Position numbers and translations under genes: made by a program
The notes under the pieces: model-generated
Seen by the model: the letters and a program-made list of their open reading frames with translations, nothing else
Databases searched by the model: none
What the model was told of the DNA's origin: nothing
NCBI GenBank assembly: GCA_003130875.1
Contig: QEXY01000020.1
Coordinates: 1-43,417 of the forward strand
Length of the DNA stretch: 43,417 bases
Direction: 5' to 3'
Source: Ardenticatenia bacterium
GTDB taxonomy: Bacteria; Chloroflexota; Anaerolineae; 4572-78; NAK82
Part shown: positions 36,626 to 43,417 of the stretch, piece after piece
Layout: each line of letters opens with the position of its first letter
Numbering within the stretch: position 1 is the first letter of the stretch

Positions 36626-36809
36626 AAAGAGAACCCCGCCATGCCGTGTGACAAACCAGCAACTTTGAGTCTGCTCGCGCAGGTGGAAGCCTCTCTGGTG
36701 GCTCTGCCTCGCCCGAGAGCAGGCCCCGCATCCCCACCACGAATCTGGCCTCCAATAGATAAAACTGTTGGCTCAAATCGCGTGGTGCATCACGCACATG
36801 GCAGGGTCT
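36626..36809 (-). ncRNA. ssrS: 6S RNA (ssrS) candidate
   Basis: About 184 nt on the minus strand can fold into one long rod. The ends pair (ACCC/GGGT, GCCATG/CATGGC, GTGA/TCAC, ACCA/TGGT, TTTGAG/CTCAAA). A large central bubble has an 18-base 5' side and a 3' side with a small CTGC-GCGA-GCAG hairpin. An upper stem follows (GGAGGCC/GGCTTCC, TGGTGG/CCACCA) and ends in a hairpin loop. That is the shape of 6S RNA, which mimics an open promoter and holds RNA polymerase in stationary phase. A promoter (TTGCCA-17-TACGAT, 36816-36844) sits at the right distance and a T-rich run follows the 3' end. Length fits 6S (about 180-200). No protein frame is convincing. Confidence 0.7.
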
Positions 36810-36815
36810 ATCTTT

Positions 36816-39875: not shown

Positions 39876-40019
39876 GAGAACGTTGAAAAAGTCCGCTGAA
39901 GGGTGTTATGCTGCCTTGGCACAGCGCGTTCATAGCCACCCTTCTAAGCTCGTTCCACCCCCATTTTACCACGTTCACTCGCCTGATCCCGAATCTCAAC
40001 GGAGTTTTTTAACCCTCTC
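39876..40019 (+). mobile_element. Diverged MITE-like element, copy 3
   Basis: The 144-base element starts GAGAACGTTGAAAAAGTCC and ends CGGAGTTTTTTAACCCTCTC, so its ends pair imperfectly (12 of 14 core bases). It shares 13 identical bases, GTTGAAAAAGTCC, with copies 1 and 2, but the interior differs. The interior folds into a hairpin whose arms are GAAGGGTG (39898-39905) and CACCCTTC (39937-39944). No flanking duplication is seen. Confidence 0.55.
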
Positions 40020-40025
40020 ATCGTG

Positions 40026-40115
40026 GAGAGTGTTGAAAAAGTCCCTTGACCGCTCAGATTTTCATAGGAAAATGGGCTAATAAAGCGAGTAACTAAAGAG
40101 TTTTTCAACACCCTC
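40026..40115 (+). mobile_element. MITE-like inverted-repeat element, copy 2
   Basis: The 90-base element matches copy 1 at 87 positions. ATCGTG flanks it on both sides (40020-40025 and 40116-40121), consistent with a target duplication. It lies 11 bases upstream of the -35 of the thiamin operon promoter. It encodes no protein. Confidence 0.82.
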
Positions 40116-40126
40116 ATCGTGTGATC

Positions 40127-40155
40127 TTGACAAAGCAATATATTTGAGATATTAT
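40127..40155 (+). promoter_or_regulatory. Thiamin operon promoter
   Basis: TTGACA (40127-40132) and TATTAT (40150-40155) are 17 bases apart, matching 11 of 12 consensus bases. Transcription would start near 40162, just ahead of the riboswitch. Confidence 0.78.
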
Positions 40156-40177
40156 ATCTGTAGCAGCAAAAATGAAA

Positions 40178-40272
40178 ACTTGGGGGAGCTGGGTGAGCCC
40201 GGCTGAGAGGAGACCCGATTGATGTCTCGACCCCTCGAACCTGACCTGGGTAATACCAGCGTAGGGAACATA
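40178..40272 (+). promoter_or_regulatory. TPP riboswitch (THI element)
   Basis: The conserved blocks are present in order: GGGGGAGCT, GGCTGAGAGG, the CGACCCCTCGAACCTGACC segment and GGGTAATACCAGCGTAGGGAA. These match the thiamin-pyrophosphate aptamer very closely. TPP binding should stop expression of the downstream hydrolase and transport genes. The terminator at 40288-40320 is the likely expression platform. Confidence 0.96.
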
Positions 40273-40287
40273 AGAATTCGGCGTATG

Positions 40288-40320
40288 AGCCGCCCACCTG
40301 ACCAGGTCGGGCGGCTTTCT
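40288..40320 (+). terminator. Riboswitch-controlled intrinsic terminator
   Basis: AGCCGCCC (40288-40295) pairs perfectly with GGGCGGCT (40309-40316), followed by TTCTCGTT. It lies just after the TPP aptamer and 20 bases before the first ATG, where a ligand-dependent terminator is expected. The T-tract is modest. Confidence 0.7.
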
Positions 40321-40338
40321 CGTTATCAGGAGGTCGAA

Positions 40339-41484
40339 ATGGAGATTGTGCGTTATCTGGTTGAACAAATCGGCCCACGTTGGGCCGGCCGCGGCGGCGG
40401 CGCCCAAGCGGCTCAGTACCTGGCCGGAAAGTTCGCTGAATTGGGGCTACAGGTAGAAACACAGACATTTCCCTTCGTGGGTTGGGAAGTGGATGAGCCG
40501 CCCACGCTGGAAATCCTCCAACCCGAGGCAGGTCATGCGTCCGTCGCTTTGATGGAATACTCCGGTGCCACCCCACCTGAAGGATTGGAAGGGGAACTGC
40601 GACCGGCTGGCCAGGCCGGAATTGTGCCTGGCTTCCTGGATTGGCCGCGTTACGCCATCGTGGCCGAGGATAACCGGCCAGCGGCTTATCTGATCGCCCA
40701 CATCGGGCTGGGGGGATGGTTCGCGCCGGCGATCCCCCTTGCCAATCCGGAGCCATTCTATCCTTTCCCGATGGCGATCCTGTCTCAAGCTGATCATCAG
40801 CGCTTTCAGGATTGGTTGAACGCTGGAAAACGCATCTACGTGCGTTTTCGCGCGCGCGGACACTATGACGAGCACTTCGTGGGTCATAACGTGATCGCCA
40901 CATTGCCCGGCAAAACGGAACGTACCGTGGTGTTGTGTGCTCATCTCGACACTGCCTACAACACTCCAGGCGCCAACAACAATGCGGGCGGGGTGCAGGC
41001 ACTCTACGAAGTCGCACACAAGCTGATAGCAATGCCCAACCGGCAGTTGAGCTATCGCTTCCTGGCATGCGATGCCACCGAATGGCATTACCTAGGATCC
41101 CGCTTTTTCCTCCAGGAGGCGCGCGCCCAGGGTTGGATGCATCACATCCTGGCGGGAATCAACCTGGATACGGTTGCCTCCGGGGATCAATTCTATTTTC
41201 TGGCCTGGCCGCAGAGCATGCGCGACCGCGCCGAGCGGGTGGTGGACCAGCTACAACTGCGCGAACGTTTTCGCACTGTCGAATTCCTCGGCCCACTGGC
41301 CGGCTCGGATCACTACTCTTTCATTCAGGCAGGGATACCTGCCTCGGAGATTCTCTTCTGGCCCTGTCCGGTGTACAAGACGCCGGAGGACGATATGCGA
41401 TTTGTGGACGCAAAGATGATCGCATTGGCTTCAGATATTGCCAATGCATTGGCTCATACTTTCGAAGAAGAGGAGGTGAAGTAG
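40339..41484 (+). CDS. M28-fold hydrolase in the TPP operon, altered active site
   Basis: The 381-residue protein has the M28 zinc aminopeptidase fold. Retained motifs are H202 (AHLDT), D277 (NLDTV) and H325 (GSDHYSF). The bridging-Asp motif, usually ADDN, is ANNN at 212-215, and the usual catalytic Glu-Glu is T247-E248. A standard two-zinc peptidase is therefore unlikely. The ATG has CAGGAGG seven bases upstream; it is the first ATG after the riboswitch terminator. It leads an operon with YkoE and ECF transporter genes, one base from ykoE. A role in releasing or salvaging thiamin or its pyrimidine precursor, as YlmB does in Bacillus, is my inference. There is no signal peptide. Confidence 0.85.
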   Translation: MEIVRYLVEQIGPRWAGRGGGAQAAQYLAGKFAELGLQVETQTFPFVGWEVDEPPTLEILQPEAGHASVALMEYSGATPPEGLEGELRPAGQAGIVPGFLDWPRYAIVAEDNRPAAYLIAHIGLGGWFAPAIPLANPEPFYPFPMAILSQADHQRFQDWLNAGKRIYVRFRARGHYDEHFVGHNVIATLPGKTERTVVLCAHLDTAYNTPGANNNAGGVQALYEVAHKLIAMPNRQLSYRFLACDATEWHYLGSRFFLQEARAQGWMHHILAGINLDTVASGDQFYFLAWPQSMRDRAERVVDQLQLRERFRTVEFLGPLAGSDHYSFIQAGIPASEILFWPCPVYKTPEDDMRFVDAKMIALASDIANALAHTFEEEEVK

Positions 41485-41485
41485 T

Positions 41486-42076
41486 ATGGCTCAAGAACGG
41501 TTCGACCTCGGATTGGCGCGCTGGACCACACGCGAGATCATCGTGATGGCGGTCATCTCCGTCGCGCTCGGGTTGATCTTCATGGCATACGGTGTGCTCT
41601 ATCTCGCCCTGGTGCCGTTCCTGGGGCAAGTGGGCATCATGCTTCTCCTGGGCTTCTACTATCTGACAGGTATCTTGGTGCCCTACATTGTGCGGCGTCC
41701 AGGTGCAGCGCTGGTGGCCTCATTTCTGGCCGCCTTCACCGAGCTCTTGGCGGGCAGCCCATTTGGCATCGCCGCTGTGTGGGCTGGACTGGTGCAAGGG
41801 GCCGGCGCAGAGGTCGTCTTTGCGCTGCGCGGCTGGCGTGATTATCGCCTGCCGGTCTTGATGGGTGCAGCGGTCCTTTCGGGCGTGTTTGCCTACGTGT
41901 ATGAATACTTCCTGCTGAGCTATGCCGTGTTGGAGCCCACCGTGCAGCTGGGGCTTTTCCTGGTGCGCATTCCCAGTGCTATCGTGCTAGCCGGCTGGCT
42001 GGGCAAGGTACTCGGTGATGGGCTGGCACGCACCGGAGTACTGCGCGGCTTGGCGATCACCCGTTCGAGGTCTTGA
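41486..42076 (+). CDS. ykoE: YkoE-like substrate-binding ECF component (thiamin/HMP)
   Basis: The 196-residue integral membrane protein resembles YkoE, the S component of an ECF transporter for hydroxymethylpyrimidine or thiamin. Five to six hydrophobic helices span the chain (VISVALGLIFMAYGVLYLALVPFLG; YYLTGILVPYIVRRPGAAL; ASFLAAFTELLAGSPFGIAAVWAGLVQGAGAEVVF). The PFGIAAVWAGLVQGAGAE segment is typical of the family. The TPP riboswitch upstream supports thiamin-related transport. AGGAGG lies nine bases before the ATG. It is followed by EcfT through a TTGA overlap. Confidence 0.9.
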   Translation: MAQERFDLGLARWTTREIIVMAVISVALGLIFMAYGVLYLALVPFLGQVGIMLLLGFYYLTGILVPYIVRRPGAALVASFLAAFTELLAGSPFGIAAVWAGLVQGAGAEVVFALRGWRDYRLPVLMGAAVLSGVFAYVYEYFLLSYAVLEPTVQLGLFLVRIPSAIVLAGWLGKVLGDGLARTGVLRGLAITRSRS

Positions 42077-42912
42077 AAGCAGTGAGCGCATACCTGGATC
42101 AAGAGCGAGATACACCCCTGCACCGCCTCAATCCGGTGGCGAAGCTGCTGGTCTTTTCGTGCTTCATCCTCACCGCGACCCTCTACCTGGATGTGGCGGT
42201 GCCGCTCACCTTTCTCATCGTCTCGTGGCTGCTGGGGTGGGTTTTCGCGCATATCTCTCCGCTTGTTCTTATGCGCCGCCTGAGCCCTATCCTGGCAGCG
42301 GCCATGGGCTTGGCCGTTTTTAATACCCTTTTCTACGGCGGCCCCCGCGAGCACCTCATCGTGGCGCTGGGCCCCATTCACATTTGGCGTGAAGGGCTCC
42401 AAATCGGAGGCAGTATCGGATTGCGCATCTTATGCGTCGCCTCTTATTCCATCTTGTACATGTGGACAACAGATCCCAGCCGACTGGTGGCCAGCCTCAT
42501 GCAACAGGCCCGTATGCCATATCGCCTGGCTTACGCTGTGTTGGCAGCTTATCGTTTCTTGCCCATCTTGCAGCGAGAGTGGGGTCACATTCAAGCAGCA
42601 CAGCAGGTGCGTGCGGCCCATTTGAGCCGCCGTGAGAGCGGGCTTCGGCGCGTCATCCGTTCCGGCATGCCTCTCCTGGTGAGCGGCATCCGTCAGGCAG
42701 AGCGCCTGGCCATCGCGATGGATGCGCGCGCTTTCGGGGCATTACCGAGGCGCACCCATTATATCCGCACGCATATGAAAGCCTCGGACTATGCGTTCAC
42801 AGTGGCCTCCCTGGCAGCATGTGGGCTTATCCTGCTCGCTTTGAGCGAGCTCGGCCTATTGCGCAGCTTCCTGGTCGGCGTGGCTGAAAGTGTGGCCGGA
42901 GCACCACAATGA
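42073..42912 (+). CDS. ecfT: EcfT/CbiQ-type transmembrane component
   Basis: The 279-residue membrane protein is the EcfT (CbiQ, YkoC-like) coupling subunit of an ECF transporter. It has several hydrophobic helices and the two Ala-Arg-type coupling motifs: QQVRAAHLSRR and AMDARAFGALPRRT, the second being the A-R-G-like coupling helix that contacts the ATPases. The TTG start overlaps the ykoE stop; GTG at 42082 has better spacing from GAGG. It overlaps the ATPase gene by ATGA. It should work with YkoE and one or two ATPases to import a thiamin precursor. Confidence 0.9.
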   Translation: MKAVSAYLDQERDTPLHRLNPVAKLLVFSCFILTATLYLDVAVPLTFLIVSWLLGWVFAHISPLVLMRRLSPILAAAMGLAVFNTLFYGGPREHLIVALGPIHIWREGLQIGGSIGLRILCVASYSILYMWTTDPSRLVASLMQQARMPYRLAYAVLAAYRFLPILQREWGHIQAAQQVRAAHLSRRESGLRRVIRSGMPLLVSGIRQAERLAIAMDARAFGALPRRTHYIRTHMKASDYAFTVASLAACGLILLALSELGLLRSFLVGVAESVAGAPQ

Positions 42913-43417
42913 AAGGATACGGTATCCGGGTCAACGCATTGCACTTTCGTTATGCTGATTCGTCCACAACGGTGCTCAACGGGATCGACCTGGAGATCCA
43001 GCCTGCTGAGACGGTGCTCCTGCTCGGCCCGAGCGGTTGTGGTAAGAGCACTTTCGCTTTGTGTCTCAACGGGCTGATCCCGGATGAAATTCCGGGCGAC
43101 TTCAGTGGGAAGATCTGGATTGGGCCCTATATGACAGGACGCACACCCGCTGTGCTACTGCGCCAGCAGGTGGGCATTGTCTTTCAGGACCCGGAGACCC
43201 AGCTGGTTATGCCGCGCGTGGATGAGGAGGTTGCCTTTGGCCTGGAGAACCTCGCTATCCCGGAAGAGGTGATATGGGCACGTGTCGAGGAAGCATTGAA
43301 ACAAGTCGAACTGGCTGAGAGAATTCGAGCACGGGTGGAAACTCTCTCGGGCGGACAGAAACAGCGCCTGGCATTGGCCTCTGTGCTGGCAATGCAGCCC
43401 GCGGTGCTGATCCTGGA
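42909..43417 (+). CDS. ECF transporter ATP-binding protein (YkoD-like), truncated by the window edge
   Basis: The open frame starts at the ATG overlapping the ecfT stop and runs to the window end, giving 169 residues of an ABC ATPase. Walker A is GPSGCGKST (about 41-49), the Q-loop is in FQDPETQLVMPRVDEEVAFGLEN, the signature is LSGGQKQR and Walker B starts at VLILD. The DPETQL stretch after the Q-loop is typical of EcfA ATPases. YkoD of Bacillus is a double-length ATPase, and this gene may be too, but its end is outside the window. It energises the YkoE/EcfT transporter. Confidence 0.93.
   Translation, partial: MKGYGIRVNALHFRYADSSTTVLNGIDLEIQPAETVLLLGPSGCGKSTFALCLNGLIPDEIPGDFSGKIWIGPYMTGRTPAVLLRQQVGIVFQDPETQLVMPRVDEEVAFGLENLAIPEEVIWARVEEALKQVELAERIRARVETLSGGQKQRLALASVLAMQPAVLIL

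Follow-up and report, generated by a model that had tools for sequence, protein, structure and literature searches.

Organization of the locus

The window analyzed was a whole contig (C87; 43,417 bases) from a genome of 3.49 Mb with a completeness of 96%. The operon under study occupies its 3' end on the forward strand. It starts with a sigma-70-type promoter (TTGACA-17-TATTAT, 40127..40155; 11 of the 12 consensus positions matched, with TTGACA invariant across four aligned leaders) and a TPP riboswitch aptamer (40172..40284; RF00059, 69 bits, E 1.2e-11). A strong hairpin follows (GCCGCCCACCTGACCAGGTCGGGCGGC then TTTCTCGTT; 40287..40317), which is terminator-like with a weak T run and is the probable expression platform. 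The RNA of positions 40280-40338 was predicted to fold with -27.2 kcal/mol (z -2.64), and the orthologous leaders (see below) carry an element resembling the hairpin; the hairpin itself was absent from the terminator-scan output. The first gene (40339..41484; ATG at 40339, end of the stop codon at 41484, AGGAGG just 5' of the start) encodes a predicted M28-fold pseudo-peptidase of 381 amino acids, referred to below as the M28-like protein. A TTG start at 40219 was rejected, since the position falls within the riboswitch. The genes for a YkoE-type ECF S component (41486..42076; PF09819, 99.1 bits; B. subtilis YkoE 5edl, E 1.1e-33), a CbiQ/YkoC-like ECF T component (42073..42912; PF02361, 121.5 bits) and an ECF ATPase (CbiO; 42909..43417; PF00005 and TIGR04520) follow directly on the same strand, without gaps, up to the contig end, by which the ATPase gene is cut.

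A preliminary description of the window had regarded the M28-like gene as the first of an operon under TPP control, followed directly by YkoE and ECF transport genes; both points were borne out by the aptamer and by the PF09819, CbiQ and CbiO matches, and its coordinates for the reading frame were correct. With the aptamer upstream on the same transcript, behind the promoter, the M28-like gene belongs to the TPP riboswitch regulon of this genome, whose second TPP riboswitch lies 5' of the gene for a ThiB-type thiamin-binding protein. Between moaA and the operon promoter (window 39876-40121), direct and inverted repeats of 18-24 nt were present (GAGAGTGTTGAAAAAGTC / GAGTTTTTCAACACCCTC), which may represent a small mobile element or a terminator pair. 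Elsewhere in the window, a 6S RNA (62 bits; 36629-36810, - strand) was found, flanked by a LysM/M23 peptidase gene and a DUF4349 gene.

Fold and active site of the M28-like protein

The M28-like protein matched Pfam M28 (PF04389) with 96.9 bits (cut-off, 21.3), and DUF4910 was the sole other Pfam match. The top Foldseek matches of its AlphaFold2 model (pLDDT 88.6) were BSAP (E 1.7e-25) and the Aneurinibacillus aminopeptidase, with the transferrin receptor ranking after the M28 aminopeptidases. By sequence score and by its zinc-exopeptidase fold, the protein is therefore a member of peptidase family M28, as had been proposed from the letters. No signal peptide was found in the 381-aa sequence, in contrast to most of the secreted M28 relatives found, and the protein is cytosolic.

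In the aminopeptidase of P. aeruginosa (PaAP), zinc 1 is bound by His296, Asp308 and Asp369 and zinc 2 by Glu341, His467 (which sits in 'YHS') and Asp308, Glu340 and Tyr466 complete the active site, and the D308A and D369A variants are inactive (PMC11313473); the site scheme of the S. griseus and Vibrio aminopeptidases is the same (PMC7522609). The PaAP residues H296, D308, E340, E341, D369, Y466 and H467 were aligned with H202, N214, T247, E248, D277, Y346 and K347 of the M28-like protein. The bridging Asp is thus replaced by Asn214, the catalytic Glu by Thr247 and the second-zinc His by Lys347. The set of five metal ligands (H, bridging D, E, D, H) is incomplete in all four orthologues (see below), which share N214 and K347, and the catalytic Glu preceding the Glu ligand is replaced by Thr or, in one of them (L021), by Gly. 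H202, E248 and D277 (three of the five metal ligands), together with D204, were kept in all orthologues. The preliminary description had read ANNN for ADDN and Thr-Glu for Glu-Glu, and had concluded that the site was partly altered while H202, D277 and H325 remained. These letters are correct, but the third key replacement (Lys347) had been missed. H325, which belongs to an SDH motif, does not bind metal: its counterpart in PaAP is Tyr, and Gln was found at this position in two relatives whose site is intact in all other respects. The position of the second-zinc His is that of the 'YHTP' motif.

D214, E247 and H347 were all retained in 23 of the 24 other M28 relatives aligned. The exception is a second, unrelated M28 domain (L018, 1468-3417, - strand; genome G145), located in a long reading frame whose N-terminal part has a HEXXH-like motif; in this domain the bridging Asp is replaced by Asn, the catalytic Glu by Thr and the zinc His by Asn. 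It is apparently an independent pseudo-peptidase, and its loss of all three residues together suggests that none of the set is retained after catalysis has been lost.

The residue losses of the M28-like protein exceed chance. The orthologues carry new invariant residues as well (C244, W249, H250, Y251, T278 and K347), and the invariant changes at G217, Q220, C244, H250, Y251 and T278 are grouped at the pocket motifs; H250, which adjoins E248, is Gly in all 24 of the other relatives. The loss of M28 catalytic function is well supported by these substitutions as read from the alignment. Compared with the M28 aminopeptidases (BSAP/YwaD 6hc6, Aneurinibacillus AP 2ek8 and PaAP), the M28-like protein has the fold, the sequence family and H202, D204, E248 and D277 in common, whereas it differs in the three replaced residues, in being cytosolic and in its TPP regulation and ECF linkage.

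Orthologues and conservation of the cassette

Orthologues of the M28-like protein (66-87% identical) were found in three other genomes, namely two more species of the genus of the source genome and one genome of another family. In these three loci (L019-L021), a TPP riboswitch lies 49-97 nt upstream of the M28-like start, and in all four loci the order is riboswitch, M28-like gene, YkoE gene and T component gene, and an ATPase gene comes next, either as its first part or as a complete double ATPase; it is full-length in L020 and L021, with two ABC_tran stretches each. The preliminary description had named homologues lying mostly away from thiamin genes as the result that would tell against its reading; the linkage was instead found in 4 of 4 orthologues. 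The upstream neighbour is different in each genome (moaA, a metallophosphoesterase gene, a DHO-dehydrogenase-like gene and Ino1), so the cassette has been held together through four surroundings.

The dN/dS of the M28-like gene was 0.04-0.16, values that are approximate because some pairs are close to saturation at synonymous sites, and between the two lineages the M28-like protein is 66% identical, as compared with 54% for the T component. Taken together, the low dN/dS and the better conservation than that of the T component indicate that the gene is not decaying, and a decaying pseudogene is contradicted by the same values. Random drift would be expected to give neither the linkage to the TPP riboswitch and YkoE in all four orthologues nor the purifying selection. 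A single horizontal transfer of the cassette between the two lineages is possible, because two of the metagenome-assembled genomes (MAGs) share one metagenome run; the four carriers are thus not four independent events, and one transferred cassette may be the source of all four orthologues.

Thiamin genes and cargo of the importer

In a search for ThiC, TenA (PF03070) and ThiE (PF02581), none of the three was detected in the four carrier genomes (G000, G015, G287 and G031; three with a completeness of 95-99% and one of 82%), although all three were found by the same searches in control genomes. Thiamin pyrophosphokinase (TPK) was found in 4 of 4 carrier genomes. With ThiC, ThiE and TenA undetected and TPK present, the carriers probably import intact thiamin, and this gene inventory agrees with the published view that thiamin auxotrophs of the Chloroflexi rely on TPP-regulated transporters (PMC3766115).

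The PF09819, CbiQ and CbiO matches identify the importer as a group I ECF thiamin/HMP importer of the YkoEDC type. In the alignment of its YkoE with B. subtilis YkoE (5edl), Glu77 and Gln95, which contact the pyrimidine, are retained, Trp49 is Tyr, Tyr46 is Leu and Asp131 is Glu, and the thiazole contacts are changed. Judged from these residues, the cargo is probably thiamin or HMP; thiamin is the likelier of the two, since TPK is the sole downstream enzyme detected.

The nearest relative

Of the non-orthologues found, P0002 of genome G471, a canonical cytosolic M28 enzyme, was the closest (165 bits to the A1 profile, as compared with 114 for the next). It is encoded in an operon (L119, 138-14035, - strand) together with a luciferase-like protein, an SDR, a YkoE-like S component, ECF A and T components, HyuA, HyuB, a PLP decarboxylase and a class III aminotransferase, which looks like an ECF-fed catabolic pathway. 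The S component of this operon is without Glu77 and Gln95 and therefore probably carries something other than thiamin. P0002 thus has the ECF linkage in common with the M28-like protein, but its catalytic site is intact and the TPP riboswitch is missing. In the phylogenetic tree, P0002 was the sister of the M28-like orthologues with support of 90/89, a placement that is weak because both branches are long. The setting of P0002 weakly suggests that an ECF-linked cytosolic M28 enzyme came first, and that the thiamin operon later took it over, with the loss of catalysis.

Possible function of the M28-like protein

Our best explanation, which we hold to be evenly balanced against all others together, is that the M28-like protein is a pseudoenzyme that serves the thiamin importer as a soluble accessory or as a ligand-binding protein, at the operon position of YkoF. 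In B. subtilis, YkoF is encoded by the first gene of its operon (ykoFEDC). The protein is a soluble thiamin/HMP-binding protein, and its gene is the extra one of the ykoEDC operon (PMC5037267; PMC5627462). Both YkoF and the M28-like protein would be soluble accessory proteins encoded beside a YkoE ECF importer and controlled by a TPP riboswitch, and a common function is proposed by analogy, whereas the M28-like protein comes from an unrelated family (no Pfam YkoF match was obtained). According to the proposed scheme, the two-zinc center of a cytosolic exopeptidase homologue would have been dismantled and then remodelled with new invariant residues. The operon would be switched on only at low TPP, as expected from the riboswitch class, and the M28-like protein would be made together with its dedicated YkoE-type ECF importer. 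Its old substrate pocket would most likely take thiamin or a thiamin-like ligand, a choice of ligand suggested by the operon context, or the protein would dock on the importer; the thiamin taken up would then be phosphorylated by TPK. The preliminary description had offered a non-catalytic binder as one of its two readings, and this one gains support from the replaced Asp, Glu and His, the strong purifying selection and the importer linkage, as far as sequences can tell.

More specifically, the protein may be the first member of family M28 with a part in vitamin B1 metabolism, namely a thiamin-binding or importer-docking pseudoenzyme controlled by a TPP riboswitch and a non-homologous counterpart of YkoF, a statement that we make tentatively and would rate as somewhat short of even. 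In the literature, no paper connecting M28 proteins with thiamin was found. If the statement is true, a new protein fold would be added to the few accessory proteins of vitamin ECF importers, the YkoF-like role of a soluble partner in group I ECF transport could be tested with a second, unrelated protein, and the locus would be a clear example from nature of a zinc peptidase that lost catalysis, with three residues replaced together, after its capture by a vitamin regulon. The annotation 'M28 peptidase' would mislead for this protein.

The explanation that competes best, although we consider it unlikely, is a one-metal hydrolase, in which H202, E248, D277 and perhaps H250 hold a metal, Lys347 replaces the second zinc and the substrate is a thiamin-related or transported compound. 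The invariant retention of H202, E248 and D277 with D204 means that the site could still take up one metal and carry out other chemistry, which speaks against a pseudoenzyme; H250, new and invariant next to E248, and the strong purifying selection are also in line with an enzyme, and the presence of P0002 in an ECF-HyuAB catabolic operon makes an ECF-tied enzymatic ancestor plausible. As P0002 lies beside a YkoE-like ECF transporter without a TPP riboswitch and with an S component that lacks the pyrimidine contacts, the association of M28 with ECF need not concern thiamin, a further point against our best explanation. Against such a hydrolase, the bridging ligand and the catalytic base are both lost and the position of the base accepts Thr or Gly; loss of the bridging Asp alone (D308A) inactivates PaAP (PMC11313473), and a GCPII variant without the catalytic Glu was deposited as inactive (5of0).

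Less probable still, the M28-like protein might regulate the ECF complex, serve as its scaffold or stabilize it, with an M28 surface that binds a protein and not the vitamin, like the transferrin receptor. The transferrin receptor is an inactive M28-fold member. Pseudo-M28 proteins that act as protein-binding modules are known, the receptor was among the Foldseek matches, and the M28-like gene is always accompanied by its own E-T-A set of unusual order (T before A); the remodelled invariant pocket residues (C244, H250, Y251, T278 and K347) suggest, on the contrary, a ligand in the pocket. With the transferrin receptor and other non-catalytic M28-fold proteins, the M28-like protein would share a catalytically dead M28 fold serving binding. 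The receptor is nevertheless a eukaryotic surface receptor in which the lost residues are different, and the M28-like protein is bacterial, cytosolic and vitamin-linked.

The other reading of the preliminary description, a salvage amidase replacing YlmB by deformylation of formylaminopyrimidine (FAMP) for HMP salvage, is very improbable. YlmB, the M20 FAMP deformylase of thiamin salvage, has clan MH in common with the M28-like protein and needs TenA, ThiD and ThiE downstream. The TPP riboswitch control and the link to a YkoE-type importer, whose cargo may include HMP-like compounds, would suit such an enzyme; the loss of the catalytic Glu and two metal ligands does not, and with TenA and ThiE, as well as ThiC, undetected in the four carriers and TPK present, the product of a FAMP deformylase would have no known route to thiamin phosphate. 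An ordinary aminopeptidase placed in the operon by coincidence, to which the Pfam M28 score alone would point, is hardly tenable, as it is already contradicted by the three essential residues lost, and the signal peptide is missing and the linkage was kept in four different surroundings.

Distribution of the M28-like gene

The M28-like orthologues are narrowly distributed, and the four carriers represent a few uncultured Chloroflexota bacteria dependent on imported vitamin B1. No additional orthologues were found by order-level searches, only distant M28 relatives were found in a sample of 400 genomes of the phylum, and a plasmid search gave only relatives of 27-28% identity in unrelated contexts; outside the Chloroflexota, the coverage consisted of this plasmid search and one degenerate-pattern scan of species genomes, which detects close relatives only. 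YkoE was present in 57 of the 298 genomes of the class. Among 20 YkoE operons of the class that were fetched, 16 had a riboswitch and none carried an M28 gene, and M28 as a general part of the YkoE operons of the class was rejected on this count. Since the 16 riboswitch-controlled operons do without it, the M28-like protein is dispensable for transport in general. In the M28-associated E-T-A sets, T precedes A, whereas most other members of the class are ordered otherwise. In three TPP-riboswitch YkoE operons (L056, L065 and L052 of genomes G043, G059 and G065), a thiamin pyrophosphokinase gene comes first, in the slot of the M28-like gene. A molybdenum/tungsten cofactor riboswitch (L070, 5603-5721, + strand; genome G263) was found directly 5' of an ECF cassette with a YkoE-like S domain.
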